The notes under the pieces are model-generated. The model searched no databases and was not told where the DNA came from. It worked only from the letters and a program-made list of their open reading frames with translations. 64,000 nucleotides of DNA from assembly GCA_026120035.1 (NCBI GenBank), contig JALRME010000007.1, forward strand, positions 310,001 to 374,000, read 5' to 3'. Positions 35,983 to 58,399 of the stretch are shown here, in pieces; the first letter of the stretch is position 1, and every line of letters begins with the position of its first letter. Source of the DNA: Coleophoma eucalyptorum. Its lineage: Eukaryota; Ascomycota; Leotiomycetes; Helotiales; Dermateaceae. The translations under genes and the position numbers were made by a program.

Positions 35983-37661
35983 TCACTCATTGGCAGTAAT
36001 TGAGCTCCGCTCTCTTAACGCCTGTCCTTTAAACCACAGTAATAAAGGAGAAGGCAGCCCCAAACCCAGCGCCAAGAATGCCAATAGAGTATCACCCCAC
36101 CCATGGTCCAAAGACCTGTATATGTATGGGGCAAACATGGGGAAAGTGAAGCCAGCTAAATACCTCAGAGTCGATGCAGCAGATAAAGCGGAAGCTGCGT
36201 ACTGACTATAAGCATCTACCAGGTAAGTCTGCACACACTGTGTCAAGATTTCTACACCTGCTGAAAAGATGGCTACCCCAATATTGGGAACAATCCAATG
36301 TACGTGATACTGGCCCGACCAGCCGTACAGGAGTAGCCCGGATGGAACGAAAATGCTGCTTGGGATCATGAGCGGGATTCGAAATTCCGGACGGCCAATA
36401 CCTCCAGCTCGGGCCTTAAGAGTGCGGTATGCACGGTCGTTGAATAATGCACATATTTGTGTGCCAGATATATAGCCAATTCCGAGGGCTATATAGTTCA
36501 AACCTGCTGTGCCAATGTTTTCATGGTAATTTGTGATCCATAGTTCTGTGAATGATGACAACACGAGGATGGCGAGTCCATATACATAAGCCATGTAGAT
36601 GGCGAGGACTTGGACAATGGGTTGGGTAATGAGGAGACTGCAAGGTCGCACAAAGCCTTTTCGCATGATATCCGAGAAACTGGTTGTCAAGTCTTCTCCT
36701 TCTGCTCGCAGATCCTCATTGCCTGTCTCTTTTCTGGCTTTGCGTGCTTTCTTCTGGAGAAGTGTTGGCGCATATGTTTCTCGGAGACATGCGATACTCA
36801 GTAGCTGGATGGCACCATCAACGATCACAGCAGCATAGAATGTCCAACGCCAGGAGGTTCTTTCAGTGATGAACCCTCCGGCTACAGGACCGGAAGCTGG
36901 AGGTAGTCAGTATATATTCACGTGGCTAGAAACTGAAATAGATACCCGATCCCAGCAAGGGAACCAGCGCATACATCGAAAAGGCTGCACCTCTCTCTTC
37001 AGTCCTCCACATATCGCTAAGTACACCGCCACTAATCTTCTATATGTAAGTCCAACTCACCCCAACCATTAATAGTTTAAACATACCGCAAGAGGAGCAC
37101 TCCCAATGACGCCCGCGAAGAATCGGCATATTATCAGACTCGCTGCATTCCCACTGACACTACATGCAACGTTGAAAAGCAATCTGAGGAAATTCGCAAT
37201 ATGCATAACATGAAGCCGCCCAAAGACCTCGCTCAACTGCCCAAATAGAAGCAAGCCTACGGCATACCCTAGATAGGCAATGGACAAAACCATCTGTTGC
37301 TCAACATCATTTGCGATATTGAGATCATCAGCAATGACTGTCAGAGAAGGTGCCACAATTGAACTTGTTGCTGGACTCATGAAGCTACACATTGCTACCA
37401 CGAAAGTGAGGAGCCATTTCTTGCTCCGCGGCCAGTTTTTAGGATTTTGCGGATCCGCTGGACTTGACCATGAAATCTAGATTACTTGTTAGTGCTAGAG
37501 ATTTTTTAATTGAAATAATGGGCGGGGGGGGGGGGGCTTGCTATATTGCTATCAACAATGACCTCAGGCTGCTCTTTTACTCTGTTTGGATTAGGGGAGC
37601 CGTTGAGCTTTTGGTTACTCGCAACAATTTCTCCTAGTACTATATCCTCCTCCGTAGACAT
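35983..37661 (-). CDS. MFS transporter, DHA1 family (cluster end)
   Basis: Four exons (37661-37542, 37476-37087, 37039-36946, 36896-35983) encode 505 residues. Introns 2 and 3 are GT-AG (47 and 49 bases). Intron 1 (37477-37541) needs a GC donor (ATA/GCAAGC) followed by a C run of 13, and rejoins SNIISWSSPADPQNPKNWP, the usual pre-helix-1 motif of these transporters. Landmarks are GQLSEVFGR in loop 2, ICRFFAGVIGSAPLA in helix 4, and GPVAGGFITERTSWRW after exon 3. Twelve helices are predicted with a long central loop. It is the last of five co-oriented minus-strand genes starting at 48.4 kb, so it may export the cluster product; it may also be an independent drug pump. Confidence 0.85.
37477..37541 (-). 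other. GC-AG intron with C13 tract in the DHA1 transporter gene
   Basis: On the minus strand the intron opens GCAAG followed by a run of C, and ends CTAACAAGTAATCTAG with a good branch site. No GT donor nearby gives an open frame into exon 2. The frame is kept exactly (ATA then ATT). Confidence 0.65.
37524..37536. repeat. Poly-G tract (13) inside an intron
   Basis: A G13 run on the plus strand, read as a C run just inside the GC donor of intron 1 of the minus-strand DHA1 transporter gene. Confidence 0.85.
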
Positions 37662-39246
37662 GATTGATGGTGACAATTTATCTATGGCTATTTATCCTCA
37701 AAAGACAAGTAGGCTTTCTGGATAGATGTGCAGTTTTTTTTGCGTAAATTCGTAAAACTACGTTCAGTCAGAAGAGATGGTACTGTGATGTGACTCAGAA
37801 ATAGAATAAGCGAGAGCAGTCCCTACCACCTATCCTCTGTTTCTGTTTCTGTTTCTTCTCCTATCTACAGCATATCTCCGGTTGAATACCCCTGGCATGC
37901 GCCACATACTCACTCGCCTTCCGGATGAGAGAATTGCGGTACTAACGCTGGTACTATAGACTACATGGGTTTGATACCGAGGATTTCCCACAATGTCATA
38001 AGTGCCCTTAAATTTTTTTAATTATGTTCATATTATTTAAGTTAACGTGAGAATAGGTAACTACTCTGACATTGACTCCCAAATCGACGTTGAATTACTC
38101 CTAGTGTTATGAGGTATTTGCCTTATGCTCTTTAATCTAATCCTTTTCACTCTCGAAAATGAAGACATACTTGCCTACTAGAGCACAGTACTGTAGGCTA
38201 AAGTAGCATCGCTGTACCATATCCAAACGCTGCACTACTATAGCATATGTCACACTGGTTGGCCCCCCGGACCAACGGGTGCCCCTAGGCCTATAAGCAC
38301 TCTTAGTGAATTCCAATCACGATTTAGGCTTTCCATATCATCCAGAAAACATTATTCCCGTAGAAATATATAGTATATACCACTTGCATGTATGTCGGTC
38401 TCAAAGACGCCACTGTAGTTGTAAGCTAGGTGTTTTTAGAATATAGTATCAGACTACGATTAGCTTATCCTGATCAAGCTATGCGAATTTCAAGAACTTA
38501 ACTATCATGAAGGCTGTTAGAAATTTCAATCTACAGAATTTCCTTGGAAGGAATGAAATATGTTCTGGTTAAGTTCGTAAGACATACAGTACGTCAAGGC
38601 ATATGAACATCCCAATTAACCACAAATCTTGCTTCCTTGATCCATTCGATCTGGTCGAAGATTGTAAGTGACGAAAGAGAGAAGAATACGCACACAAACG
38701 AGCCAAGTTATTAATTCTAGATCTCTCCTAAACTTATCAAAACACACGGCCTTAAGACTTAAACGATGCAGCTGAAGCTTACAGTAGAACCTGGGTCTCC
38801 AGAGCCACCAAAGATGGCCATTTGTTTTCAAAATCTGGCTAGTGAGGCCTTAGTTTTGAGCCCCCGGGTTCAACTCATTTCACTGAGTTTGCACCCGAAG
38901 AAACCTAGTCTCATATATGAATTCGTAAATCGACGTTGATTCAGTGGGCGTCTTACCGTGGATTAACGAGTGACATCTTATCTCGCATCCTTTTGGTGTT
39001 ATCTTTTTATCAGCAACAAGGAGATATCTGATGATAATAGATAAAGCTTTTGTATTTCCAGAGACTAATTTCTCGACTTCAGCCACTGGAAATAAATGAT
39101 AGGAAGGCTAATTATTCAAACTGGGGTAATGTAATTCTGATAAACGGAGCAAGAACGCCGTCTTGTCATAGTATCGACCTTTCACGTCCTTACGCCGCCT
39201 CATAATCCAATCACATCATTATCGTAAATAGTTCCCCTCCATAATC
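37662..39246. other. Intergenic region
   Basis: About 1.6 kb, AT-rich, upstream of the transporter and downstream of the minus-strand regulator. A small inverted repeat GTTGG...CCAAC around a C/G-rich loop lies near 38258-38276. Frames 38616-38831 and 38880-39086 have no domain character. Confidence 0.45.
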
Positions 39247-41621
39247 TTACATTTGACTCCTACCAGAGCTTGACATGCTGTCGCAGCAGGCGTCAAGCTG
39301 TGGAAGTTCATCTACCATGCCATACTGCATGATGTCCACCGAATCGGCAGCGACTAAAATCTGGTCTGTAGAATATTAGCTACCTAAAGTCTTAAAATAA
39401 ATTGGTTGTTCATCGTACCTTTCATACCGCCCAGTGCCTCATAAGCAATGGAGTAATTCCGCAAAGCATTTAGAACCAGGCGAAGACCGTCCCCGAGCTG
39501 CCTCAATAGAACTTTTGCAGGGGATGCACCATCAAGAGACCCTCCAAAACCCATAGCGCGAGTTCTGTAAGATAGCATGACCATCGCATAACTGCTCTGC
39601 ATTGCGCAACAAGCGAAGATTGGCACCATGCGAGGAGCTTCAACGAGCTCATCCGAAGCTGGCGATGGTAAACTTCGGAAAGCGTGCGCAATGTTGAAGG
39701 CGGACTTCATACATAATTTTGCGGAGAAGTGGCTGTTGAAGGGAAGGACTCCACATCGTGGATCTATCCCACGTCCTGGAATACCATCTGTTGACACTTT
39801 AAGATCGCAGTGCTTCTGTGTAAAGACTGGCATATCTGAGAATGCACAATATCTATGGAGTTTGATCCTCGCGCTTTGGTTAAATTAGTATGGCGATTCC
39901 TGAGTCACTGATGTAGCTCTTACCTATTGAGCTTTATCTTTGCCATACCCCTGAGGGACTGGGATACCGCAAATTCTCCATCCGACAGTTTCACGGAGGA
40001 ATCCAAAGCCCACTGGTTGGCTTCGTTGCAAAGTGGATCTAGCAAGGCCTCCAATTCTAGCATCCGGTCCCCAATGGTCGAGAAATTAGTACTTGTTTTC
40101 AATGCAACCTCGAGATCCAAGACAAATTGTGTAGCGGACACAATAACTTGCTGTGCTTGCATAAAGGCGTCCCATGCAGCAGGATCGGCTTCGAATGTGG
40201 GCTTGGGTGTTGTGAAGCGAGGGTCATATAGGTAAATCGTCAATGATGTATTGCTGAGAATGGATCCTTGGCAGACGAGAATATATGTCATCCACCACGC
40301 TCGGCGATCTCCTTCGGAATAAGGCCCAAAGTCGTCGTTCCTTGAGTGAAGTCCTAAACCCATCGCAGCTACTAATGCTTGACCTGCGCGTGTTCTCAAT
40401 TTTGATATATTGCCACGCTGAGCATATTCATACGTGCCCAAAATCAACAACGCAATCACGCTTTCGTTCTCCACGCGACATTGAGGGTGAAACGGTGCCC
40501 TCGGAAGTAAAGATGGCCCTCGACTAAGAGCTTCAGACGGCTTTGTATTGGAGTAAAGGAGCTCGGACTCTGTTTCTAGACTCTCCAGTGCTGATAAAGC
40601 AAAGGAGTGCGCCTGGCTTCGTCGCTGAAGAACTGACTCTATTGATTCTGGATTGGGGTCACTGGGGTGTGGAATAAGAGCCAGAGTAGCTGAAATTGCA
40701 AGGGCTATTGGCGAAGAAGGCATCGAGTCTTGGGAGCCACCTTGAAATGATGTTTGGCTGCCTTTGGACGTGCCTGGAATTTGTCCTTCGGTTGCAGGTG
40801 GCAGTACAGGGAAATAAGGATGTATGTATGTATAGTATGCATTAAGTCTTGTAAGGCAATTTAGCTTTGGTTAACCAAGCAAGGGGTAACTCTCAATATA
40901 CTTACAGATCTTGATCACATGCATATATTCGAGCCACGGATTGTGACTTCTCTGGCTCGGGGATCTTTTTGGGAACTTCGGGCGACCCGTAGCCACTATC
41001 ATTGACGTCCGTGGTCTCAAAATTGGTAGAGAAAATGGTATCAAAGATAAAGTCTGTGTCGTCTTTGAAAGAGTCCTGGGTTGTTAGTCCAGCCCCCGGT
41101 TGAGCTAAAAATAGAGGTCCTGGAAGAGTTATATCTAGAAAGTTGATATTAGCAAAATTCATTGTAAAAAATATAATGCACATAATCCTACCTAACGCGG
41201 GCTGGCAAAGCTCTAGGAGATCACACTGATCTAGGTTGAGACTGGTGTCACTCCGTGACGAGGGAGATGTCTCTTTTTCAATGACTGTAGTCTTGCTCTT
41301 CCGGCATCTTGCGCCTCCTCTCTTGCTTCTGGTGTAGGTGCATGTTTTGCCTTTGGCCACGCACTAACCAATATGTTAACTGCGAATGGTTGTAAGTTGA
41401 AGGGGTGCCTCATACATTAGAGCAAATAGTATTCCCGTCACATCGAATCCGAGAAGCTCGGCTTTATGGACATGTTAGACAAGCGAGTTATAAAAGCGCT
41501 ATACTGACCATTGTAGGCACGCTACTTTGACTGGAGGTACTGCAAACTTCTTTCTTTGCTTGATAGGTGGTGACTGAGTGGGTGATGCAGAGCCGCGCTC
41601 TGCTTTAGTGTCTTTGTCCAT
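39247..41621 (-). CDS. Zn2Cys6 transcription factor of the homoserine cluster
   Basis: Seven exons are proposed: 41621-41509, 41461-41416, 41363-41192, 41134-40906, 40847-39924, 39852-39419 and 39365-39247, giving 678 residues. The first two introns cut the zinc cluster, which appears only after splicing: C35-X2-C-X6-C-X5-C-X2-C-X6-C61 (ACLQCRASRIRCDG, then CSNCVAKGKTC). Intron 41135-41191 is in frame and could be retained. The join at 40848-40905 rebuilds LLNAYYTYIHPYFPVLPP, the classic middle-homology start of fungal regulators (AflR/Gal4-like architecture). Exon 6 ends near GGMKDQILVAADSV. It lies 870 bases downstream of the sulfhydrylase gene on the same strand and is a candidate pathway-specific activator. 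Confidence 0.86.
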
Positions 41622-42490
41622 GGTGTTATGGGCAGGAAGGAGATTGCTACAGCCCGCTATGTGAACGACTTGTACGCGGGGTATGACGTCGAAAACTAGA
41701 GACAGAAGTGTTCTACAGCGGCCGTACGGTCTTTATGTCATCAAACCTTCGAACCCGGAATGTCCTGAGTGGGTTTTTCACAACTCCTGAACCCCGGAGA
41801 CAACTAATTCAGGAACGCTTGCTGGGGAGTTCCTCGGAGCCGGATGAGATCCAGGGGGCAAACGTGGCCTGGGGAAATGTAAATGAAGAAAGAAAAGCTT
41901 CCACGGGTCGAATTAGAAGGAGCAGTCCCTAATTCTAGCTTGAATAGCGTAGAGCCGACCGCAGAGGACAGTATGATATCTCTGAAAGATGCCCTTGTTG
42001 CTTGGATCCAGAACACGCGATAACGATATCACCTGTTTTGAGTGGGGAAAAATGCGAAAACTGGCCAATCTTACAGCCGAGTCTCGCCCTTCCAAACCCC
42101 GGATTCTGATGTTCGGGATTTGAAAATTTTGCAGGGGCTCGCTTGACTTTTGGGCTTCACGTGACATGCTGATGAAGCAGTCTGCAGTCGTGTTGTGAGC
42201 AAGTTAAGCAGGCTAGCTTACCAATTACTTAAACTTTAGATGATTTGGTTACAGATGAGTCAGTAGAACCGATATCCAATCACTGCTGCGCTGGGTTCGG
42301 GAGTCACGGTAAAGTTTTACACCGTACTACTTCGTGACGGGCTGGTTGTAAGCGAACAACTCTTTTGACATGACTCTAGCCGCTACGCTAGACTACAGAA
42401 GTCTAAGCTAATGTGTATGTGAATTGCTCTCCTAATACTACCCGACATCGTCATAATCTGCTCTATCAATATCTAGTGCGAGGGAAGAAG
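41622..42490. other. Intergenic region
   Basis: This is the promoter of the Zn2Cys6 regulator and the 3' region of the sulfhydrylase gene, both on the minus strand. The open frames at 41708-41932 and 41913-42167 lack protein character. Nothing else is recognised. Confidence 0.45.
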
Positions 42491-44103
42491 CTATACTCCA
42501 TTCTGCTTGACTCCGTTTGCCACCGCCTTAATTCCCGCCCCTTCGAACGCCTGTTGAAAATCGTGAATAATATCGTCAATGTGCTCCAGTCCAAGAGACA
42601 CCCGAATCAAGTCTGGGGTAACACCAGCCTGGATCTTCTCTTCGTCTGGGAGCTGTTGATGGGTTGTTCTCCATGGATGGATGATAAGTGTCTTAGCATC
42701 GCCTACATTGGCAAGATGGCTACATAATTTCAAGTTGTCCACAACGGCACTGACTTCATCAATGTTCCCATCAACCCCAAAAGTAAGAACTCCACCGAAT
42801 CCATTTCGAAGGTTCTTCTTGGCATACTCATGATCCGGGTGAGACTCCAGACCTGGGTAGAGCACCCATTTGACTGCAGAGTTCGACTCCAACCATTGTG
42901 CAAATTTGAGAGCGTTCTCGTTGTGGCGCTCCCCTCGCAGACTCAATGTCTCGAGGCCCATTAAGAAGAGCCAGGCGTTAAAAGGGCTCATGCATGGACC
43001 CAAGTCTCTCATGGCATCCATTCTTAATTTGGCAGCAAGGGCTTTGAAGCCATATGCGTCCCAGAACTTCATTCCGTGGTAGCCGTCTGCTTCCTCAGTA
43101 AAGCCTGGGAACTTGCCGCTCTTTGACCAGTCAAACTTTCCTCCATCGATGACAATTCCTCCCATGGATCTACGTAGTCGATGAGTTAGTTTTGGTTTTG
43201 ATATAGCAAATCTCGGTAGTAAATGAAGCAGTCCAAGCACTTGCACGCTTCTTGAGAGCAGCCAAGAAGCCCACATCCCTTGAGACAGACTAGATGGTAG
43301 CAAGGGGATCCAAAATAATTTGTGTTTGCTTACGTTCCATGGCCTCCAATCCACTTAGTAGCACTATGCGTTATGATATCGGCACCAAGAGAGAATGGCT
43401 TCTGAACATAGCCTCCCATTCCGAAGGTGTTGTCACAGATCAGTGGGATTCCAGCATCATGAGCGACTTTCGCAATTGCAGCAATATCTGGAACGTTATG
43501 TTTTGGATTGCCAATTGTCTCAATATAAACAGCTCTGGTCTTATCGTCGATTGCAGCAGCTATGGCTTTTGGGTCTTGACCTTCAACCCATTTGACATTT
43601 ATTCCAAACTTCTTGAGATATACTCGAAATTGATTGTATGTTCCGCCGTAAAGCCAGCTGGTACTAACGAAGTTATATCCTTGTTCCATGATGGAAGTGA
43701 TGGCCATGAACTGGGATTTGAATTAGCTTAGCCCCACCCGCTCTTCCAAGACTCGTACCTGAGCAGCATGTCCAGATGCCGTGGCAACAGCTCCGACTCC
43801 TCCCTCCAACATAGTCATTCGATTCTCAAAGACCGATATAGTCGGATTGCCCATTCTGGTATACACATAGCCATCCTTTGCCCATGCAAATTTACTCGCA
43901 CCGTCCGCGGCGTCGCTAAAATTGTATGAACATGTTTGGTAGAGAGGTACTGCACGAGCGCCATTGATGGGATCTGGATCTTGTCCGCCGTGTGCCTGGA
44001 TTGTCTCAAACTGCGGCTCCCTGCGATTTGTCAGTGCAAGAAAAACTAACTCCGTCTATACTACTTACTTCGTGATGCCTCGCAAGGATCCTGATGCTGG
44101 CAT
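42491..44103 (-). CDS. O-acetylhomoserine sulfhydrylase-like PLP enzyme (Met17/Fub7 type)
   Basis: Four exons (44103-44069, 44020-43759, 43710-43334, 43169-42491) encode 450 residues of the Cys/Met-metabolism PLP family. The enzyme replaces the acetoxy group of O-acetylhomoserine with sulfide (giving homocysteine) or, in Fub7-type homologues, a carbon nucleophile. Landmarks are YTRMGNPT, the ASGHAAQ segment spanning intron 2, the [14 protein letters not shown]-binding segment, the Schiff-base Lys at about 218 ([12 protein letters not shown]) and the C-terminal RVSLGLEH motif. Length and motifs look intact. Intron 3 is 164 bases against about 48 for the others. It sits beside aspartokinase and homoserine acetyltransferase genes on the same strand, which supports a dedicated pathway rather than the housekeeping Met17 role. 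Confidence 0.93.
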
Positions 44104-44752
44104 GTTGAGATAAAGTTACGGCGGATAGTTACAAAACTTGAAAACCAATTTGCAGTGATGATATGATTTCGGAAAATGTATATGTTTTTCTCGTTCTATA
44201 TGGATTTTACTTGGAATGTATGCGTCTATACATGTCTCTTTCTTTGCCTCCATTTCAATATCCTTATCTTTCGGTATCTGCTTAATCTGATAGCATGTAA
44301 CATACCCATTGCTGATCTCAATGATCATCGCCTCATTAACGAAACTAAAATAGCAGTATCTCAGCATCAAATACCGAGAGGCTAAAACGTGGGGGAGCAT
44401 ATACTGTATCGTCAGCTTACTGCTTTTGAAATCTTGGTTGAATGTTGCGTTCAAATCCCGCAATCCGAAACAAAACCTCCGAGGCGCGGAAGTCCGCGTC
44501 CAACAGACGGAATATCACGTTCGATGAGAGAGTAGGGTCGAGTAATCATTATCTATTTAGCCAAGAAAAACCATATCCACAACTAGGAGCCGCGTTCCAG
44601 TTTCCGAAACCAACCGAGGGATCATGCGCAAGTTATCGTTCATCGTACGTCAGCACTCAGCAAGCCCGTATCAATCACTATCAACACTTCAAGCCTTATC
44701 TTACAGTCATCGGGATTTGGAATGCAGAGTTATATTTAAATAGTCTAGGTCT
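44104..44752. promoter_or_regulatory. Promoter of the sulfhydrylase gene with CGG/CCG motifs
   Basis: This region lies upstream of the minus-strand sulfhydrylase. At 44479-44498 there is a dense group of CCG and CGG triplets: CCG-N5-CGG overlapping CGG-N4-CCG (CGGAAGTCCG). Paired CGG triplets are what Zn2Cys6 dimers bind. A further ACGG lies at 44517-44520. No gene is seen here. Confidence 0.4.
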
Positions 44753-46665
44753 TCAGAATAGCCAAGGTCCTTTCATGATACTATTTTGAGCAATCGGGAT
44801 ATGTTCAGTATACTGAGGAATCCCCAAAACATTAGTGTGAATAGTTTGCATGGCTTTTAGGGTATCAGCACTTTGGACTACGCATCTATTGAGGAAGTTA
44901 GCAAAATCCGAGATCTTTTGTTTTGGAGGAACTCACGAGATATTGATCTCGCTAGCGCCCTGTGCAATAAGATACACGTTGATTCCCACCTGTGCTAATT
45001 TAGAGAATACCTCGCCTGTTAAACATTAGTAGTTGTTGAGTTACTATCTTTCTTTAGAGGTTTTACCTGAAATGCCAACCATATTCCGCATCTTGTGACC
45101 AATAACAGAGACAATTGAAACGTCCCGGCGGACTTCGACTTTCCCAAATCTCTCTAATTTTGTGAATAATCGTTTCTCCTCTTCAGAACTACCAATTGAC
45201 GATATTGCTAAGCTCACTGATTGCTCACTTGTTGTTACCAAGTCCGCAACGACATTGAGCTCGTCAAGGCTTCCAAATACTCTCGCAAGAAACCCATGAG
45301 ATTTTACCTGCCGATTCGATTGAATATTGAGTAGAATTATGGAATCTTTTGTTGTAAGTGCGGTTGGGCTTCTACGGTGTCTCCCTTTGCCATAATAACC
45401 ATTGGCACTCATGAATCCTGCTATAGAAGGATCTAGCAGAAGTGACTCGGTGGATGACACTGGAGAAGGCGTCCCAGATGAAGTTTCGCAGTCAGAATTA
45501 TCCGAGGGGTATATGATAGTCCCTCTTCCCCCTGGGTTCTTCACATTCTTTAACCGTAGTGGGATGTTTGCTTTTCGGATTTGCTGCATGGTCAAAGGAT
45601 GAATGACCTCGCTTCCATAATAGGTCAACTCTGCGGCTTCTTCTAGGGTGACCGTAGATAATAACCTAGCCGATGGGATTTTTCGAGGATCTGCTGTGAA
45701 GATGCCATCAACGTCTTTCCATATCTGCAATTCTGCTGCTCCCACTCCAAGTGCACACATGGCAGCGCAGAAGTCGGAATAGCCTCGTCCAACACTCTTC
45801 AGCATTGACTCTGGTAGCTTTCCAAAGAATCCTATGTATCACTTAGATCTGGTCTACTAGTTCTAGGAGAAATATCATACCCGTGATAACTGGAACCGTT
45901 TGTTCAGCTTCACAAGCCCTGAGCTGACGGCCAATCTCCTCGGTAATGCTATTATAGAACTGTGGACCAAGTTCTTGATATGCTCGCCTTTGAATGTCTA
46001 GATCATTGCCGTAGACACTGGCTACAATATCAAGCAGTGATACCAACTTGGCTGGAATTCCCTATGATAGTGTCAAAATTATCCCTTCGTATGATTCCGA
46101 GACATGTACCTTAACTTGGAGAGATGCTACAACAAGCCTGCAGGAAAGCCGTTCTCCAGTAGCTATTACTCTGTCTTTAGTCCTCACTGATAGCTCACCA
46201 ACAGTCTTCATGTAATTAATTTTCCGTCAGCAAAGGTTCTATAAGATTGAAAGAAAGCTAACTAACCTGAGCAGCATTCAGAAAGGCATTTAAATCGTAA
46301 CATTCTCGTATTATATCTGCCTGTAGAGCATCACATATAGAGGCTTGACTTTTGCATCTCACACCAATTCTGATGGCTTTATTAGCTTTGATATGCTCAT
46401 CTTTAATCTTTCCAATCGTGGCATCAAGTTGACTCTGGTCGCCGTCTAAAGCACTCTGGACCGCCTGAAGCAGCAGTGCGGTCGTACCCAAAGATTTCGA
46501 TGTCCCTGATATTGCCGAGCAGACGACGCCTACATGATGCGTTTCCAGATACTGTGGGATGATCGTAATGGTGATGGTCTCGAGCAAATTCCCAAGACTC
46601 GTACCGCCATACTTCTGGATGATCCACGGCTTCCGCACGGGTGGACTCGGAAGAACTGCTGGCAT
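44753..46665 (-). CDS. Aspartate kinase (Hom3/Fub3 type)
   Basis: Six exons (46665-46267, 46205-46110, 46061-45881, 45831-45067, 45015-44937, 44885-44753) encode 550 residues. It phosphorylates aspartate, the first step to homoserine. All five introns are 48-61 bases with good borders, and each join restores family sequence: NAAQTVGELSVR, SLQVKGIPAKL, VITGFFGKLPES, GISGEVFSKL and EINISCVVQS. The catalytic region has KYGGTSLG (residues 18-25), VGRGYSDFCAAM and WKDVDGIFTADPRK. Two ACT domains end the protein (SSIGSSEEEK; AQVGINVYLIAQGASEINIS). The ATG 46665 was chosen because upstream in-frame codons lack an ATG. Feedback sensitivity cannot be read by eye. The length is near that of yeast Hom3. 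Confidence 0.93.
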
Positions 46666-47101
46666 GGTATATTGAGTGGTGCTGTATGATGTCACAATCT
46701 TCAAAATGGGCAGATAACAAGCATGGGCAGCTTCTTGATCATGTATGTATTCCTCGAATTCTCCATTTAATGAGGTTTTCGTTACGGCAATGGCTCGGTG
46801 TTTGATCGGGATTTGACCGTTATTTAAGGGGCAAGAATTAGGTCGCGATGACTACAAACTTCCACATTCTAGAACCATGAGAACCAGTCGACTATGATTC
46901 TTGATGACTTTGATTTTTTCCGATAATTCAATTGTCGCCCATATCATATGAACCCAGTGAATGAATTTCAGCTGTAATATACCCCCATGCCGAGTAGCCG
47001 AGTTATTTTTACTTCAAAAACAAGCGAACAGAGAATCAACACACGTAGTAGTGTTGCAAAGCAAGCTGAAATTGCATGTATCTAATACAAGTCTAAACAT
47101 T
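46666..47101. other. Short intergenic promoter of the aspartate kinase gene
   Basis: This 436-base gap lies between the acetyltransferase stop and the aspartokinase start, both on the minus strand. It contains the promoter of the kinase. No gene is seen. Confidence 0.45.
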
Positions 47102-48421
47102 TTATTCCCACTGTCCCTCGACTTCTCCAAAGAGACTATCTTTGACCTCAGCTGTAGGTTCTTCATAATCTAACAGTGGAGCTCTGTATATCCAAGAGCA
47201 GACCCCCATCAAATGTTCGGTGATGATTTGACTCAGAGAATCGAATGCAAGCAGAAATCCATCATGGCCCTCCGGAGAATTCAGCATGATTAGTTTGGCT
47301 TCTGGAAGAGCATCTGCAAGGGATCTTTGCTGCTCAGGTGTGAAGAGAACATCAGACACGACTCCAATAACCAAAGTTTTAAGCGGCATGGTGCTCAAAG
47401 CCAGGGAGAGCCTATCTCCTGCTTCCAACTCAGTCCGCCCGCGCGTTACATCGTGCGAGTCCATCTTGCGAGTAAGGTGAATATAACAATTCGCGTCAAA
47501 TCTTCGTATGAATTTGTCGCCTTGATATCTCATATAGCTCTGAGTAGAAAATTGTAAAGGTTCAGATACTTGGACAGTATCTCTCTCAACAATGCTATCA
47601 GGGTCCTTCTCGGGCGGGGGTGTTGCAAGTGATGACTGTTGGAGAGGCATTATCTTCTTAGAAACAGCACACTTTCTTCCAAACCTTGTATCAAAAGAAG
47701 AGCTTGAGCGGTATGTCAGCATCGCAACCATGCGCGCTGCTGCAAGACCACCTAATGGCTGCGAGTCTGGCGCTGGTACGTAATAGCCATTTTGGAAAGT
47801 TGGATCCACGAATATGCATTGTCTTTGAGCTTCTACCCACGCAATTCCCCAACTACTGTGTTCCGCAGACGTCGCTATTGGAATTATGCTCTTGACATAA
47901 TCTTTTGGTGTGCAGAGAGGCCATTCAAGTGTTGCCATTCCTCCCATTGAGCCACCAATTACCGAGGCAACACTTTTCACTCCCAGATTGTCGAGAACGA
48001 GCTTATGAATGCTATAAATGTTATTTTCGACTCTTTAAGTTGAATTTATCACTCACCAGACATCATCTCTAATAGTTGTTTGCGGGAATTCGGGACCGTA
48101 AAGCCTTCCGGTATTTGGATTCAAGCTTAACGAGGAAGTCGAGCCGTATGGTGAACCTAAGACATTTGCACAAAACACGAAGTATCTAGAAGTGTCGAAG
48201 GCTTTTCCAGGACCTAAGAGAGGCCCCCACCAGTCCGAGATATCGCTGCTGCCTGAAAGAGCATGACAGATGACCATACAATTATCGGCATCTGTGTTGA
48301 GTGTTCCCCAGGTCTTATAAGCGATGGTCACATCATCAAGAAGCACCCCGGATTCGAGACGGAACGAATTGATTTTGGCAAACTTCTGTCCTCGAACGAA
48401 GTCTGAATAGAGATATGGCAT
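47102..48421 (-). CDS. Homoserine O-acetyltransferase (Met2/Fub5 type)
   Basis: Exons 48421-48057 and 48011-47102 encode 424 residues of the alpha/beta-hydrolase MetX/Met2 family, which moves acetyl from acetyl-CoA to homoserine. The 45-base intron 48012-48056 (GTGAGT, TATAG) rejoins RDDVCIHKLVLDNLGV. The nucleophile is Ser143 in GGSMGGMATLEW; the charge-relay Asp lies in VVSDVLFTPEQQ and the His in SPEGHDGFL. ICHALSGSSDISDWW and the NVLGSPYGS oxyanion region are intact. The frame is open upstream to 48514, but the first ATG is at 48421. The length is nearer the 420-residue secondary-metabolism forms than the longer housekeeping Met2 of many fungi. It is divergent from the nitrilase, sharing a 456-base promoter, and heads the five-gene minus-strand row. 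Confidence 0.93.
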
Positions 48422-48877
48422 CTCAGTTTGTGAATTGAAACCTAAAACAGTCAATTGTCTGGCGAAGTGGTATTCCGCCTTGACATACTGAACATTTTCT
48501 TCTCGGATACTCAAAGTATTCTATAGCTGCACGTAAGACGCGATGCTCTCTTTTTTTCTTATTTGATACCCATAATGCATCTATGAATAATAAGGCTATC
48601 TCCATTTAGATTCATGCAGCTTCTATCATGCCCACCATTTCCTGGAAGTCCTTTATCGCATGATTTTCTTATCGCGGGCTTTGATATAGAAATCTGTCGG
48701 GATTTGTGGACTATCAACTGTGGGGGACTTCTAGTGCACATCAGCATATGTGTCAGCATCTAAGTTATGATTATTTGACTTACGCCACACAAGAGATAAG
48801 GAATTGAGGTTTGTTTTCTTATATATGAGAGACTGTGACTTGGCATTCGACCAATCATTTCCAGAATTGGTTCAAAT
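48422..48877. promoter_or_regulatory. Divergent promoter: acetyltransferase / nitrilase
   Basis: This 456-base region between two divergent ATGs makes co-regulation of the two genes likely. It contains AGATAAGG (GATA-type) near 48791 and AT-rich stretches. No strong palindrome was found by eye. Confidence 0.55.
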
Positions 48878-50053
48878 ATGGCTCGTCAAGAAAGTGTTAA
48901 GATTGCGGCCGTTCAAGCTGCACCAGTCGCTTTTGACCTTTCTGAGAGCTTGAAGAAAGTTGACCACTTCTCAAAAGAGGCTGCTGACCAAGGGGCAGAG
49001 TTGGTTGCATTCCCGTATGTGTTCTTTGGCATTGTGATAGAGTGGTATTGATTATAGGACAGTGAAGCATTTTTGAGTGCATATCCCTGGAGGTATGCTT
49101 TTGATTCTACCATCGGCACACGGGAACCAAGGGGTAATAACCAGCGCTCTGTTACAACCATTCTGCTGATATACAACTAGGTAGGCAGTGGTATGCAAAG
49201 TACTATAACTCTGCTGTAGCCATCCCATCTCCAGAGTTTGAAATTCTGCAACGGAGTGCAGAAAAGCACAAGATCAACATATCTATTGGAATCATCGAGA
49301 AGAATGGCGGAACGCTCTATTGCACCGCCCTGTTGATTGGAAAAGATGGCCAACTCCTCAGTCGGCACAGAAAACTCATTCCTACTGGAGTTGAGCGCCT
49401 TATCTGGGGAAGAGGGTCAGGAGATTCATTGAAAGTGGTAGACGTTGGTTTCGGCAAAATTGGCGGATTGATATGCTGGGAAAATTACATGCCAATGGCT
49501 CGAATGGCATTGTACCAGCTTGGTATCGATATATATATCGCCCCAAATGCAGATGATCTGCCTTCTTGGACAGCAACTATGCAGCACATCGCCAAGGAAG
49601 GAAGATGCTTCGTCATCAATGTGAACCAGTTTTGCAAGGTCTCAGATTTTCCAGCGGACTATCCACCATTTTTACCAGAGAGTCATGATAAAAACCCGGA
49701 GGGATTGCCGTGGAAGTCTGATGATATTTTGAACCATGGAGGGTCCTGTATTGTCGGTCCACTTGGAACGTTCATCACAGAGCCAGTATGGGACAAAGAA
49801 GAAGTCATTTATGCAACATTGGAGTTGTCCAAATTGACAGAGGCTAGAGTAAGTCTGTTTTATCCTAGAGATGATTGCAACTAACTGTGAATGTAGATGG
49901 ATCTTGATCCGGTCGGTAGCTATGCAAGACCAGACATCTTGTAAGTTCTACGACTATGAAAGTTAACATGTGTGAATGCTGCTGACTCACGCTTTTAGTT
50001 CGTTATCTGTAAACACGAAACCGGGATTGAATGTCAACTTCCAAGACTCTTAG
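48878..50053 (+). CDS. Nitrilase / carbon-nitrogen hydrolase
   Basis: Five exons (48878-49014, 49063-49133, 49181-49848, 49897-49940, 49999-50053) encode 324 residues. The catalytic triad is complete: Glu47 in AFPEAFLSAYPW, Lys134 in HRKLIPTGVER and Cys168 in GGLICWENYMP. The second intron leaves PRGRQWYAKYYNSAV, normal for true nitrilases, and the end exons rebuild DIFSLSVNTKPG. CWENYMP fits the aliphatic/aryl nitrilase branch, which turns R-CN into an acid (or sometimes an amide). It stands divergent from the homoserine acetyltransferase, and its stop is 60 bases from that of the convergent GNAT gene. A role on a gamma-cyano amino acid made by the neighbouring PLP enzyme is a hypothesis; general nitrile or cyanide detoxification is the alternative. 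Confidence 0.93.
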
Positions 50054-50113
50054 ACCAATGTCATTTCTAATAGAAAATTAAATACAAACCTGTGATCAGA
50101 GATGTAGATCTCC

Positions 50114-51008
50114 CTACTGCTTTGGATATCGGACCATTCCAGTTTGTTGGTGCAACCCACTTCCACCATATTCTGCCATATCAATTTCGGCATAACCAAC
50201 TTGTTCGAATCCACATTTTAGATATACTCCATATCCCATGGGTGAAGCATCGAGAAAGCACATTCCTCCATTTGAATCAACATCCGGAAATATAGCTGTG
50301 GTCAAGCTTTGGCCGACACCACGTCTCCCATGCGATTGTAATGTATAGAGATTCTCCAGGACTTTGAGGATTCAGTGAGCGGTATCCAGGACCTAAACTA
50401 GTATATCAATCCTTACTATAGTGTTCTTTACCACCATCTAAGGACTCTCTTAAACCCTTAATCTTGGCCGAACATATCTCGCATAAATTCGCGTTCCCAC
50501 CTTCTGGGATTGGAGGAAGTGGTCGTATTGTCCCAGCTTTGATCCCTGCTTCTTCCTTCTCTATTTCCTCTTTCTGCTTCTTCTCGCTTAATTCAATCCA
50601 CTCGGTTGGGTTGTGCGCCCATTCAGCGAGACCTATAATCCTACCTCTTCCTTTCAAAGTATTTCGTATCGTGTCAGGCTCGCCGGTTGTGACATCTCCA
50701 TCGTAAGCCAGGACCTGATCCCAGGTCGGCAGTGGTACTTCCATTTCCATATCTCGAACAACAAACACCCATGAAGTCTCTTTCGCGCCCTGCTCCTTTC
50801 GCAGTTTTCCTGCGGCTGCGCGTCTTTTGATTTTCCGGGCCCACATCGTAGTCAACCATCTTATGGTCTCCTCAGTGGGAGGTCCATTCCGTATTCGCGT
50901 CAGCTCAGAGAGGCCTAGGACACTTTGCACAATGAGTGCAATTGAATAAGAATCATGAATTGCAAGAGGATCAGCAGCATCAAATAGTTCTGCATCCGTG
51001 AGCTTCAT
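50114..51008 (-). CDS. GNAT family N-acetyltransferase
   Basis: Exons 51008-50417 and 50361-50114 encode 279 residues. The intron 50362-50416 (GTAAGG donor, AAG acceptor) is the only one that joins the two frames into HYILENLYTLQSHGRRGVGQSL, which contains the acetyl-CoA-binding motif A (RRGVGQSL). The C-terminal half has the usual GNAT ending (FLDASPMGYGVYLKCGFEQVG). The N-terminal half (TDAELFDAADPLAI; RIIGLAEWAHNPTEW) matches the fungal layout of a first beta-strand pair with a charged helical insert (EKKQKEEIEKEE). The start is the first ATG, as codons upstream to 51017 lack one. It is cytosolic; the substrate is unknown. It is convergent with the nitrilase and may protect or finish the cluster product, or be unrelated. 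Confidence 0.85.
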
Positions 51009-51531: not shown

Positions 51532-52917
51532 TCAAATCTTCGTGTTGACCTTTGCATACAGTGCTGCTTCGAATTCTCTGCCCATCTCAATAGTCCTTGG
51601 ATCTGCTGTAGGCACAAGCTGGCTTCCGAAAATGCCACTTACTCCAGATGTCCTGTCAGCCCACCAGAAGAGGTTAGGCAGTCCAGCCCAATGAATGCTT
51701 CCTTTTTTTCTCCCACTTGGAAGATCTTCAAGGATGACCATCCCTCCAAGACCAACTCCGAATTTCGTTCCCATCGGTATTCCCGGAGCAGCAACGTCGT
51801 GGTATTCAGGAATGCTCAGCAGCATTTCAGCCGTTGCTTGTGATTCAGGCCCAATTTGTGGTGTGCACATTTGATCGAGCATGGAAGAGCTAAGGAGTTT
51901 CTCGTCATTGGAAGCGAGACTCTGCAGTACCTTTTGGTAGTCAGGGACAGTAGCGTAGCCACCAGCTCCACCAGAATCATCCTCCAAGCCTGTCGCTTTC
52001 CAAACTTTGTCGGCCGTCCATTGGAGTGCTCCGTTGACATCTGCTGGGGTTCCGAACGCATTGGGACCTCCCTGTCGCTCAGTCATCTCGGGTAAGCGAG
52101 CAAGCATGTCTGGACGCTTTTCTAGGTGGAAAGCCATATCCTTAATACCTAATGGTTCGCAGATATACTTCTGTATGTACTCTTCCAAGGTCATCTTGGT
52201 CACTCTAGCCACCATCAAACCAGCCCAATCAAACCCGGCTAAACTATATTAGCCTTAGAAAACACTGAAATTGAAAGTACTTACTTGAGTAGGCATAAGA
52301 TTCCCCTGGCTCATGGACCAGCGGTGTCAGGCAGCGCCAAATAATGGTGCCTTCACATAACCCAGGCGCTTCGCCTCGTGATGCACGCCACTGAATCAGG
52401 TTAGGGGTGAAGGCATCATAAGCCAAACCTGACGTATGTGTGAGAAGGTGTCTAGGAGAAAGTAAGTACTTATCGCTTAACAATTAGCTGTATGGACATA
52501 ACTTACCGCAAAGTAATAGTCTTGTTGGCTTTCACCAGGATAGGTTTTTCGCTGTCTTGTTCGAAGCCTTTGAGAACTTCAATATCCTTCAACTCGGGCA
52601 AAAGTTTTGTTACATCCTCATCCAGGTCCAGCAATCCCCTTTCAACACACTGAAGAGCTGAAATGGATGACAGAACCTTAGTGCACGAAGCGAGCCAAAA
52701 AACCGAATCTAAAGTCAAAGGCTTTTTGTCGTCCTTGAGAGAATTGAAACCGAAAGCTTTGGCATATGAAGATTTGCCTAGCAGGCATGAGCCTTAAAAG
52801 ATGTAGTTATCATGGAATTTCAATAAATGTACCTTGTGCATCGCTTCCACAAACAACCCCTCCAGGCAGCTCTAAGTTCTTGACAGCATTCTCAAACTTC
52901 TGTTCGAAATTCTCCAT
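51532..52917 (-). CDS. Serine hydrolase/transesterase, class C beta-lactamase fold (LovD/EstB type)
   Basis: Four exons (52917-52833, 52792-52507, 52451-52285, 52238-51532) encode 414 residues. Introns are 40, 55 and 46 bases; the first is unusually short but has a usable branch (GATAACTAC) and an AAG acceptor. The nucleophile motif is S64-C-T-K67 (WLASCTKVLS). The tyrosine motif is Y178-S-T (YAYSTGFDWAGLM), created by the third splice and matching LovD. A third-box HWAGLPNLFWW replaces KTG. RHLLTHTSGLAYD is the family marker before the Tyr motif. Fungal members hydrolyse esters or move acyl groups (LovD in lovastatin). With no signal peptide it is cytosolic. It lies head-to-head with the DHA2 transporter and may load, trim or release an acyl group. 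Confidence 0.92.
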
Positions 52918-54053: not shown

Positions 54054-55986
54054 ATGTCATATACTGCGGAGCAAGTCATGCCTGGAAATACCAAAAAGTC
54101 ACCACAAGCAGAGGCTCAGAAAACGAGTAGTGCTGCCGTTATAGGCTCTGTCAAACAAACCTCCAAGAATCGATCTGTCCATGGGTGGAGGTGGGCAATG
54201 GCAGTTGCATCGATTCTATGCTCAACATTCCTCTTTTCGCTGGACACCACAGTGGTAGGTTAGGTATGGATTCATGCCGACTTGTGCACTAACAGTTGTG
54301 CCAGGTAGCTGATATACAGCCAAACATCATCGCCTCATTTGGGAATATTGATAAGCTACCATGGCTCGCAGCAGGTTTCGTACTTCCGTCTGCGGCTCTG
54401 ACGCTTCCCTGGAGCAAAGCATATTCCATCTTCAATATCAAGTGGCTTTATATATGCCATGTTCTCCTATTCGAAGTTGGAAGTGCCATCAGTGGTTCTG
54501 CTCCTAGTATGGATGTCTTAATCGTGGGCCGAGTTATTGCAGGAATTGGGGGTTCTGGCATGTACATTGGAACTCTCACATTCTTGACTGTTGTGACAAC
54601 AAAGAAGGAACGACCGATGTACATCTCCTTAGTTGGACCTGTTTGGGGGTTTGGGACGATCATAGGTCCATTTGTGTGTATTAAAACATTCGAAGAGCCC
54701 AAAGCTAACTTATTTAGGTTGGCGGTGCATTTGCAACCAGCAGTGCAACCTGGCGTTGGGGATTTTACGTCAACATAGTCAGTACATCTTCCACTTTTTG
54801 GTCCTATTTACTGATCAGAATTAGGTTATTGGAGCATTATGCGCACCAGCTCTATTGTTCTTACTTCCCTCGATCGACATGCAGCCAACAGCATCATTTA
54901 GCAGCAAGCTGAGACAGAATGATTTCATGGCAATTATCATATTCTCTGGTTGGACCACGTCTTTCGTTATGGCAATTACTTTCGGAGGGAGTGTCTACGG
55001 TTGGGAGTCTGCCACCGAAATTGTCTTATGGAGTTTGAGTGGAGTGCTCATGATTGCTTTCATACTTAGCCAAGTTTATCATCCTTTTGTGTCGTCTCAG
55101 GATCGGTTGTATCCTTCAAGCCTACTTACACACTGGAAAATAGTCAATCTCCAATTCCAAGCGTTTGCAGCTGTAGGCATCGTAATGGTTAGTAGCGTAT
55201 TCTTGAAATTGTATAAAAAGTTGACCATTGCTATCCAGGTACCTATCTTCTATGTTCCCTTGTTCTTCCAATTCTCAAGGGGAGATACAGCTTTGCATGC
55301 TGCAGTTCGTCTACTACCACTCGTATTTACAATTGTTCTGTTCTCGCTGCTCAACGGGTACTTTGTGGCAAAGTTTGGATATTTCATGCCATGGTTCATT
55401 TTCGGAGCAGCACTCTCGCTCGTTGGGACAAGTTTAATGTGTAAGTTCCTTCTCTTCGAGGTTTGGAACAAGGACTGACTCTTCTAGATACTTTGAATGT
55501 TTCTACTTCCGCTTCTGCCATTTACGGATACACGGTCCTCCTTGGAATAGGCTCAGGGTCTTTCTTCCTCGGACCTTTCGCCGTAGCACCCACATTAGTT
55601 GCACCTGAGAAAGTATACGATGCCATTGCTGCCGTAAGCGTCGCCCAGAATCTAGGCATTGTATTCTTCGTCTCCACAGCCGGGAATCTCTACCAAAATT
55701 TGGGGGTCAAGTACGTGACACCACTCGTACCTGTCGCTTTCCGCGATGACGTTCGACCATTGATTGCCGGCACAAGCAGCTCTCTCTTCGCACAGCTTTC
55801 TGAAAGTACACAAACGCTCGTTACGGCGGCAATTGTAAGGGCTCTGGATCAGACATATATGTTGCTCATTGTAGCCTCGGCTCTGTGTTTAATCTTGGCT
55901 CCATTTTTAGGCGTAAGTCCTCATTGAACTAGTCCTTGAAAAAGTTAATAATCCTGGATGATGAATAGCTTGGCAAGGTTAACTAG
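54054..55986 (+). CDS. MFS transporter, DHA2 family (14-helix)
   Basis: Seven exons are proposed: 54054-54254, 54305-54673, 54718-54777, 54825-55187, 55239-55440, 55488-55912 and 55969-55986, giving 545 residues. If the last intron (55913-55968) is retained the protein ends at 55927 with 544. Every join restores helix sequence: SLDTTVVADIQPNI, IIGPFVGGAFATSSATWRW, YVNIVIGALCAP, GIVMVPIFYVPLFF and LMYTLNVSTSASA. LDTTVV in helix 1 and GRVIAGIGGSGMY in helix 4 are DHA2 marks, and 14 hydrophobic segments are countable. Such proteins often export fungal toxins and give self-resistance. It lies directly upstream of a Zn2Cys6 gene on the same strand, a usual cluster layout. Confidence 0.9.
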
Positions 55987-56724
55987 TAGAAATGGGTGTC
56001 AGAGAAAGATCCGTCCACTAACGGCCATAACCATTCTTACCCGACAATGAACCGAAAGCTATAAGTTGCGACGAATGAAATGCGAGACAATCGTAGAAGA
56101 AATTCTTAAACATGGCGAATTTTAAATTTTTCAATAGTCCGATGCAGATGATCATATATATATATATATAGGTTACGTATAGTAGTTAGAAGCTCCATCT
56201 TGATAGAATAAAAACCTCAATACTTCAAAGTTGTCAGTCTTTAATAGACTTTTTGTGCCCGTTATACTAACTTAAGCTTTCCACATGCTCCATGTCGAAT
56301 CTAGGGTTGATCATGTGGCTGCAGTAATACTATAGCTATTGAAAATAACACGGCTATGAATAATTTCAAAGATCCTTCAATCTATACCCATAATTTATCT
56401 ATATAGATTCATTATTATTAGAAGCCAAGTAGTCATGTGATTGGCCTTGTTGCACTCCAGCGGCCAATCAGGTACTTGAGACGGGACTCTTCTAATCTGC
56501 CTCGATTATGAGCTTTTCAACCTACAAGTGCACGTCTAACTCTATGTCCTCTTCGTTCGGCGATTAATTACTCTCACCATTGATCCAGTTGCAATATTGA
56601 CACGTGATATTGTAGTGGGGCATTAGAGTGATGGTTGGTAAGCATCAACTACCTCTATCCCTTCGTGACCCAGCAATCTAGATGTCTTCATTTCTACAAG
56701 ATTCATGCTCTCTCGTTTGACAAA
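55987..56724. other. Intergenic region with AT microsatellite
   Basis: AT-rich promoter of the following regulator. An (AT) run of about 9 units lies at 56153-56170. No gene is seen. Confidence 0.5.
56153..56170. repeat. (AT)n microsatellite
   Basis: Alternating A and T over about 18 bases. Low-complexity DNA with no assigned role. Confidence 0.8.
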
Positions 56725-58399
56725 ATGGGCGCCAGGAGTAAAGGCTGCCGAACATGCATCTCCAGACGCGTGAAATGTGGTGCAGAAACGCCATCCTGTC
56801 TCCGATGCCTTAAAGGCGGATATACATGCGAAGGGTATCGTCCACTGGTATTTATAGATGAGAGACCGCGGATTGCGAGGTCCAAAGCGGTTGTACGGGC
56901 TCAGGAACGTGATTATGCGTTACATAAACAAAGACTTCAGACAATAAGTTCCATCGGTAGCATGCCGCTTACTGCATTCAAGCAGGATATCTTCCTCTCT
57001 TTTCTCGTCCACAAATTACATGAGGGCAGAACATTGTACGATACTGAGGATATGGAAACTAGTTATAGGACTGATCATGCTCCTACACAAGGATGGTGGA
57101 TCAGTGAGATAGTCAAGGATGAGCCGTTGATTAGCCTTCAAGCACTTGCAGCGATGGTGTTTGGCCGGGCCCATGATTTTCGAGAAGCGAAGTTAGAGGC
57201 AACTAGGTTATATGGCGAAGCGCTTTTAAAATTGAGAGAAGCTGTTGAAGATGTTAAGTCGGTTTGGAAATTCAGTACTTTGGCTTCCGTAACTACGTTG
57301 TGTATGTATGAGGTAAGACTAGTTCTCGCGTTCTGAAAGAAGACCTGTTAATATGCGGCAGCTTGTTTCATACAGATCTGGTTTCGGATGGGGCTACCAT
57401 GCTCAAGCTTTATCTACTATGATCGAGCTCAGAGGGCCGTGGAGACACAAGAGGTTTCCAGAGAAGAGCCTTTTTCTGGAGCACCGCATGGTACTTGTAA
57501 GCAAAACGGCTATCTTCAAATCCCCCAGATACTGACCATTTAAGCTCTCGCAAGCTATTATGTCCCGTCGTAAATCATTCCTCGCTCAGAATATTTGGAA
57601 GGAAGTCCCGTGGGAAGATGACCCAACATCTAAACAGCCTGTCGATTATCTACTTGACATTCTTTGTGATGTTTCCGGCTTTGTTCAAGAGATCGATCGA
57701 GCAGAGAGAGAAGGAAGATCTTACGGGAACGATATTGGCCAGCGAGTCATAAAGAGCCTTCAGGAGCTAAATGAGTGGTGGCGGCAGTGGGAAGTGAGCA
57801 TTGCCGGCGCGTGTGTAGAAGTTAGCACAGACCCAAAGTCGACCATCATGGTTGATGAAGATGGCATCTTATTCCCGACACTCTTGGAGTACAGGAATTT
57901 CTGGAGTGGCTACACAACAGGCATCTACAACGCTGTCCGAATCCAGCTTTTGTTATTGTGGGAAATTCTTACCGGTGCCGCTCCCCAAACGGCAGAACTC
58001 CAATCAGAGCTCAACGAGCCTAATAATACACCACTACTTGGCATTACATCCGATATCAAAGGCCTCGCTCGTGAGATCTTTCAATCGCTGGAGTACTATC
58101 ATCTCCAGTCAAAACATCACCTGGGTACATTCTGTCTACTATTCCCTGTAGACTTCGCATATGGTTGTCTTGGTTTGGATTCCAGGGAAACTAGATGGCT
58201 CCTAGGTAACAACGCGAAGGAGCTTGCCAAGTTTGGTGACTTTGTGCCTGGAACAAAAAACCATACGCTGATTCCGCAGTATCGATTCAATGCCCCACAA
58301 AGTGGACAAGGCACGCTCAAGCATAAGTTGCTGAGTGAGAATGCAAAGATCAACGACTGGCGGCGAAAGTGGAAGCTCAATTCGTTGGCTCTCGGTTGA
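56725..58399 (+). CDS. Zn2Cys6 transcription factor next to the DHA2 transporter
   Basis: Exons 56725-57312, 57362-57496 and 57545-58399 encode 525 residues. The ATG at 56725 puts the zinc cluster at the very N-terminus (C8-X2-C-X6-C-X6-C-X2-C-X6-C35: KGCRTCISRRVKCG, PSCLRCLKGGYTCEG), normal for this class; the open frame upstream to 56635 adds no conserved sequence. Joins give LCMYELVSYRSGFGWGYHAQAL and MVLLSQAIMSRRKSFL. The rest is a helical Fungal_trans_2-type effector domain (AWYHHAQAL-like segment, ARSHKRFPEKS-like linker). The two introns are 49 and 48 bases. It is the second regulator flanking the homoserine cluster and might control the DHA2 transporter or the whole set. Confidence 0.9.

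Follow-up and report, generated by a model that had tools for sequence, protein, structure and literature searches.

An O-acetylhomoserine module beside a NIT4-like nitrilase in Coleophoma eucalyptorum: a possible fungal route for cyanide

What does a fungus do with a second set of genes for making and using O-acetylhomoserine (OAH)? The question is raised by a stretch of 64,000 nucleotides from Coleophoma eucalyptorum (the window; contig JALRME010000007.1 of assembly GCA_026120035.1, positions 310,001 to 374,000, or C79:310001-374000 in our contig numbering). Here genes for an OAH sulfhydrylase-like pyridoxal phosphate enzyme (the PLP enzyme), an aspartokinase (AK) and a homoserine O-acetyltransferase (HAT) follow one another, with a nitrilase gene (NIT) divergent from HAT at one end and a gene for a Zn2Cys6 regulator (TF1) at the other. 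A preliminary description of this DNA had treated ten genes between 35983 and 58399 as one metabolite cluster. We arrive at a narrower functional unit, which probably consists of five genes and not ten: TF1-PLP-AK-HAT-NIT. The nitrilase, to which that description gave no role, offers the strongest hint of which nucleophile the PLP enzyme joins to OAH, and it points, tentatively, to cyanide. The genome analysed comprises 45.26 Mb in 101 contigs; published work is cited for the passages that bear on these enzymes.

The duplicated module and the PLP enzyme

The ten gene models were set by hand from reading frames. All of them are intact, with a single terminal stop each, and together they contain 31 introns of 44-164 nt, the GT-AG ends of which were imposed during model building and are hence not independent evidence. 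The genes for the PLP enzyme (42491..44103; 450 amino acids, four exons), for AK, which carries an ACT domain (44753..46665; 550 amino acids, six exons), and for HAT (47102..48421; 424 amino acids, two exons) are adjacent on the minus strand. The PLP enzyme scores 605.5 bits with the OAH/O-acetylserine sulfhydrylase model TIGR01326 (cut-off 495.1) and AK scores 309.1 bits with TIGR00657 (cut-off 208.7). HAT belongs to the MET2/MetX family: it falls below the cut-off of the MetX model TIGR01392 (430 bits against 500), exceeds that of NF001209 (366 against 331), and in Pfam matches the generic Abhydrolase_1 only. Intact models and family profiles thus confirm that the trio lies side by side on one strand, as the preliminary description had it.

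That description also took the module to be a duplicate, a claim that would have failed had these been the only copies in the genome. Second copies exist: an aspartokinase on C68, MET2 on C35 and MET17 on C20, three separate contigs, as expected of scattered housekeeping genes. The window proteins have diverged from these copies, to approximately 37% identity for AK, 47% for HAT and 57% for the PLP enzyme; the automatic models of the C20 MET17 and C68 HOM3 genes are imperfect and served for rough identities and tree placement. The OAH-making and OAH-using module is truly duplicated. A third MetX-family gene, with a single exon and an N-terminal extension, lies at C79:395413-396975, with the family match at C79:395743, some 21.4-21.7 kb beyond the end of the window, and we take it to resemble a fungal serine O-acetyltransferase. 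We rejected it as a part of the cluster: it is 30% identical to HAT and the intervening genes look unrelated.

To place the PLP enzyme we used a tree of 51 sequences, made up of the window protein, the fungus's own MET17, 8ovh, FUB7 of fusaric acid synthesis, the Thermus enzyme and 46 of 120 listed matches. The window enzyme and 28 matches form one group with support of 1.000 on a long branch, and FUB7 sits outside it, among the ascomycete MET17 proteins. Identity of the window enzyme is 91% to the Tricladium varicosporioides protein, 56-63% to MET17-type proteins, 53% to FUB7 and 49% to the Thermus enzyme. Among the matches listed, the clade extends over Leotiomycetes, Eurotiomycetes, Dothideomycetes and Sordariomycetes, plus a lichen fungus. 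Residues that are fixed or nearly fixed in the clade and differ from MET17 include D51, K55, W58, M227 and W291 (21-29 of the 29 clade sequences carry a letter at those positions). The motif SATKW, the lysine of which we take to be the PLP lysine, is present as in MET17 and FUB7. Judged by its sequence, the PLP enzyme belongs to a separate clade, distinct from FUB7 and not orthologous to housekeeping MET17.

In the same tree the Paecilomyces variotii enzyme (P0006) groups with Sordariomycetes sequences, for which horizontal transfer is a possible explanation.

The nitrilase partner and the shared upstream motif

NIT (48878..50053, plus strand; 324 amino acids, five exons) scores 197.8 bits with the Pfam family CN_hydrolase. 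Its best PDB match is Arabidopsis NIT4 at 287 bits, the next reaching 181 bits, and it is 94% identical to a Coleophoma cylindrospora protein. Residues E47, K134 and C168, which presumably form the Glu-Lys-Cys catalytic triad of nitrilases, are all present; across 12 aligned sequences K134 and C168 are invariant and E47 is nearly so, one annotated sequence (P0215) differing there. NIT is the sole close copy found in its own genome, the next long matches being 32-36% identical. A tree of the window protein and 48 of 120 listed matches follows the division into fungal classes for the most part, Fonsecaea and Exophiala next to Dothideomycetes being among the exceptions, and because of this agreement the nitrilase gene looks old.

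Does the nitrilase accompany this PLP enzyme in other species? Protein searches give the longest contig for each match, and an identical contig size was taken to mean the same contig. A member of the PLP clade and NIT lie on a contig of the same size in Tricladium varicosporioides (546617 bp), Rasamsonia emersonii (99514 bp), Dendryphion nanum (277843 bp), Lepidopterella palustris (20183 bp) and Parahypoxylon ruwenzoriense (5748124 bp, weak evidence on so large a contig). Among the matches listed, this amounts to 5 of 32 clade entries set against 120 NIT entries; for comparable species that occur in both lists it is five of six, spread over four classes. Paecilomyces variotii is left out of the latter count since its PLP and NIT matches come from different strains. 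None of the 87 other PLP entries shares a contig size with NIT, which is a weak control since most of them come from basidiomycetes, a group that the NIT list lacks. A better one is the LovD-like serine hydrolase encoded nearby: no contig size is shared in any of the eight species (counted by eye) found in both the LovD-like and NIT lists, namely Tricladium, Xylaria sp. CBS 124048, X. arbuscula, Paraphoma chrysanthemicola, Leptodontidium sp. 2 PMI_412, Scytalidium lignicola, Alectoria sarmentosa and Hymenoscyphus albidus, and none of the 120 listed LovD-like entries shares a contig size with either the PLP-clade or the NIT list. The nitrilase is a recurring, conserved partner of the PLP clade, and the LovD-like gene is probably a lineage-specific neighbour.

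The same five genes are joined by the ten-base motif TCGGGATTTG, which has four exact matches in the 64 kb (0.07 expected; four were reached in 0 of 100 shuffles), all in the same orientation on the plus strand and all in 5' regions of the core. One lies 492 bp 5' of TF1 (42113..42122). A second, just past the 3' end of AK, is 607 bp 5' of PLP (44710..44719), and a third is 141 bp 5' of AK (46806..46815). The fourth sits in the promoter region between the divergent HAT and NIT genes, at 276 bp 5' of HAT and 181 bp 5' of NIT (48697..48706). What speaks against the motif is its origin in a search of 5' regions for shared words of 8-12 bases, and because of this origin a shuffle of the whole search is the proper control. 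In that control, which covers 10-mers, a word common to at least four of eight non-overlapping 5' regions came up in 0 of 1000 dinucleotide shuffles, and one common to at least three regions in 122 of 1000. Genome-wide there are 132 exact sites, against 41 for the reversed control, and positions were obtained for the first 100 of the 132.

TF1 (39247..41621, minus strand; 697 amino acids, six exons; Zn_clus 33.2 bits) is a candidate regulator of the pathway on the grounds of its sequence and of the site at 42113 in its own 5' region. A site containing CGG would be a fitting target for a Zn2Cys6 protein like TF1. Exact copies of TCGGGATTTG are missing from the 5' regions of the remaining five genes, those for MFS1 (upstream 700 bp), a GNAT-like protein, the LovD-like protein, MFS2 and TF2. 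With this absence, and with the LovD-like gene sharing no contig size with the core, a single cluster of ten genes is not supported. Elsewhere in the genome, among the 100 sites with positions, a nitrilase-family match on C47 has two copies 30 bp apart (C47:160321 and C47:160351) at a distance of about 0.85 kb.

Cyanide and other candidate nucleophiles

The likely first product named by the preliminary description, a gamma-substituted amino acid, is supported alongside the duplicated module that makes and uses OAH. Our preferred reading of its identity, to which we give somewhat less than an even chance, is that OAH and cyanide yield 2-amino-4-cyanobutyrate (also called gamma-cyano-alpha-aminobutyrate or cyanohomoalanine), which is then converted to glutamate or glutamine. 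AK and HAT, together with the housekeeping dehydrogenases, would lead from aspartate to OAH; the PLP enzyme would exchange the acetate of OAH for cyanide; and NIT would hydrolyse the resulting nitrile to glutamate and/or glutamine, which would complete the detoxification and return the nitrogen. TF1 may act through the TCGGGATTTG sites observed in all four 5' regions. We propose this sequence of steps because the nitrile that an OAH enzyme would form is the next homologue of beta-cyanoalanine.

The intact genes, the duplicated module, the PLP clade of its own, the recurring PLP-NIT linkage and the shared motif are computational results, and both half-reactions have published precedents in relatives. 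Formation of gamma-cyano-alpha-aminobutyrate by an OAH sulfhydrylase is on record (Omura 2003, cited in PMC9317851), and 2-amino-4-cyanobutyrate is described as a known product of bacterial cyanide fixation. For the second half, NIT4 acts on beta-cyanoalanine, as does the fungal nitrilase NitAb, which is said to have more than 500 ascomycete homologues of more than 50% identity (PMC7503981). Taken further, the locus may be a eukaryotic cyanide-assimilation cluster, with a dedicated supply of OAH, a cyanide-fixing PLP clade, a NIT4-like nitrilase and one regulator with its motif, present in several classes of Pezizomycotina; this wider claim is possible, and we hold it a little more loosely.

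A number of observations weigh against cyanide. The nucleophile is not readable from sequence, and the analysis turned up nothing specific to cyanide. There is no plant NIT1-NIT3 chain among the PDB matches, so that the label 'NIT4-like' leaves the substrate unfixed, and for fungal nitrilases sequence failed to decide between the NIT1-3 and NIT4 types (PMC7503981). The cross-species linkage data concern PLP and NIT, the adjacency of AK and HAT being known from the window genome alone; Xylariaceae sp. AK1471 has PLP and NIT on different contigs; and NIT is listed for many species with no listed PLP partner and has a life of its own, a comparison on which it bears that the 120 listed PLP matches are largely MET17 proteins. 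Another Cys/Met PLP-family gene has a copy of TCGGGATTTG (C5:356923) approximately 0.2 kb away on its 5' side, and for this reason the motif could be an element of sulfur-amino-acid genes in general. The sole alternative oxidase gene (C13:2049524) has no motif nearby on its 5' side; the nearest site is 3.7 kb away on the 3' side, and a link to cyanide-resistant respiration is thus unsupported. Finally, cyanohomoalanine is reported to be nontoxic and not to slow the growth of E. coli (PMC13320846), so its hydrolysis is not obviously needed for safety, and we have dropped toxicity as the reason for the coupling of PLP and NIT.

Bacterial neighbourhoods weigh on the same side. Of 590 GTDB loci that encode a NIT-like nitrilase, 80 were retained, and in one of these 80, from Chloroflexi (L121), an OAH sulfhydrylase lies near the nitrilase. 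There, at 349-4405, a metA-like gene (identified by eye), an OAH sulfhydrylase and the nitrilase stand side by side, and the sulfhydrylase is the only strong Cys/Met match in its genome. Two other loci gave single weak matches, L105 to HAT (25%) and L099 to the LovD-like protein (25%). In the class of L121, 41 of 298 genomes matched and 30 loci of 2.6-4.0 kb each were cut out; the sulfhydrylase appears in none of the 29 further homologue loci and only in the locus of L121 itself (L130). We read the association as about what chance would give, by our own rough estimate, and, with no repeat in the class, do not count it as a bacterial parallel.

How do other explanations fare? The PLP enzyme might use a different carbon, nitrogen or sulfur nucleophile to make a gamma-substituted amino acid, NIT acting on a nitrile in the product or its precursor and the transporters exporting the result. 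FlvA, and FUB7 in the proposed route to fusaric acid, use OAH with carbon partners (PMC8902786, PMC10967133), D51, K55, W58 and W291 are changed relative to MET17, and two MFS genes flank the core. We nevertheless consider this doubtful: linkage is shown for no additional tailoring gene, the LovD-like gene sharing no contig size with the core, and NIT looks like an enzyme that acts on a small cyano-amino acid. That the locus is an auxiliary methionine or sulfur-assimilation module, an extra HOM3-MET2-MET17 set to which the nitrilase is linked for another reason, would agree with the PLP enzyme exceeding the OAH/O-acetylserine sulfhydrylase cut-off and with the motif site on C5. It is unlikely, however, in view of the separate clade with its own residues, the PLP-NIT linkage in five species and the presence of the motif in the HAT/NIT promoter.

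Cyanide might also enter by a different door, NIT turning beta-cyanoalanine into aspartate and asparagine that feed AK, with the PLP enzyme fixing cyanide on O-acetylserine as well as on OAH. NIT4-type enzymes do act on beta-cyanoalanine (PMC7503981), AK consumes aspartate and TIGR01326 covers both kinds of enzyme; sequence itself does not distinguish the acceptors, but a dedicated HAT points to OAH and not O-acetylserine, and we regard this route as quite improbable. Most improbable of all is that cyanohomoalanine itself is an exported methionine analogue, with the nitrilase for self-protection. E. coli methionyl-tRNA synthetase incorporates it in place of methionine (PMC13320846) and MFS genes are nearby, yet the same source reports it as nontoxic to E. 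coli, the ten genes include no cyanide source, the motif is absent 5' of MFS1 and MFS2, and no such secreted product appears in the open-licence literature surveyed.

Flanking genes and known systems

Pfam domains on the ten models are Cys_Met_Meta_PP, AA_kinase with ACT, CN_hydrolase, Beta-lactamase, MFS_1 in two and Zn_clus in two. Of the neighbours named in the preliminary description, the two Zn2Cys6 regulators, the two major facilitator superfamily (MFS) transporters, the nitrilase and the LovD-like protein are borne out, while the GNAT assignment reaches only a sub-threshold match (Acetyltransf_7, E 0.015). Beyond TF1 lies MFS1 (35983..37661, minus strand; 498 amino acids; MFS_1 131.8 bits), a flanking gene of unproven membership. 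Beyond NIT come the GNAT-like protein (50114..51008, minus strand; 279 amino acids) and the LovD-like serine hydrolase (51532..52917, minus strand; 409 amino acids), a Beta-lactamase family protein with PDB 4lcl, a transesterase that we take to be LovD, as its best match at 268 bits; it is 81% identical to a Coleophoma crateriformis protein, the next match being at 54%. MFS2 (54054..55927, plus strand; 561 amino acids with an uncertain C-terminal end; MFS_1 105.7 bits) and TF2 (56725..58399, plus strand; 525 amino acids; Fungal_trans_2 and Zn_clus) follow, and membership is likewise unproven for the GNAT-like protein and for these two. The block is bounded on the right by the gene for the OST48 subunit (60507-62094, minus strand; OST48_N and OST48_MD). 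No polyketide synthase (PKS) or nonribosomal peptide synthetase (NRPS) domain was found in the ten models or in nine further open reading frames (382-31904) scanned, in keeping with the earlier view that neither is visible here. To the left, at 21473-31904, a Zn2Cys6 regulator, a GH16 protein, a GT2 glycosyltransferase and a reading frame with no Pfam match are possibly a polysaccharide cluster.

The analogy with the FUB cluster drawn in the preliminary description survives in its logic and not in its PLP enzyme. The FUB cluster likewise has a dedicated aspartokinase, a HAT, an OAH-using PLP enzyme, Zn2Cys6 regulators and an MFS transporter (PMC10967133). Here, in contrast, the 19 models and reading frames scanned include no PKS (FUB1), NRPS-like (FUB8) or FMN enzyme (FUB9), the PLP tree puts FUB7 inside the MET17 group and the window enzyme outside the FUB7 branch, and the recurring partner is a nitrilase. 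Flavunoidine FlvA is an OAH-using PLP enzyme in a fungal cluster too, but is fused to a dioxygenase (PMC8902786). The proposed reaction and the enzyme superfamily are those of the bacterial gamma-cyano-alpha-aminobutyrate synthase, an OAH sulfhydrylase of Chromobacterium and Bacillus stearothermophilus, for which the passages on that enzyme describe neither a dedicated OAH supply nor a nitrilase partner. NitAb and NitTv1 are, like NIT, plant-type fungal nitrilases, and are active on beta-cyanoalanine; compared by description, they are presented as single enzymes, unlike the clustered NIT (PMC7503981).

In the plant beta-cyanoalanine synthase/NIT4 pathway there is a similar pairing of a PLP enzyme with a NIT4-type nitrilase, but the acceptor proposed here, OAH, is one carbon longer, the PLP enzyme is a gamma-substituting member of the Cys/Met family, and the genes are clustered and fungal. 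In plants the PLP enzyme captures cyanide by joining it to an amino acid, and a NIT4-type nitrilase then hydrolyses the nitrile. Loline LolC is a further OAH-using PLP enzyme in a fungal cluster, and we know of no nitrilase in the clusters of FlvA or LolC. No fungal cluster of this make-up is present in the titles or abstract openings surveyed, which cover open-licence literature only. The parts are known and their combination is apparently new: a clustered OAH-using pathway joined to the detoxification of a cyano-amino acid.

Cyanide hydratase is the enzyme to which the handling of cyanide by fungi is usually attributed. If our reading is true, there would be a second, nitrogen-saving fungal route for cyanide, the presence of a NIT4-like nitrilase beside methionine-pathway genes would be explained, and a new enzyme clade would be split off from the large number of proteins that carry the annotation 'homocysteine synthase'. 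Should the nucleophile be another one, clade, linkage and motif together still mark a pathway of amino-acid metabolism that is uncharacterised and has neither PKS nor NRPS; cluster finders that start from core enzymes can be expected to overlook pathways of this kind.

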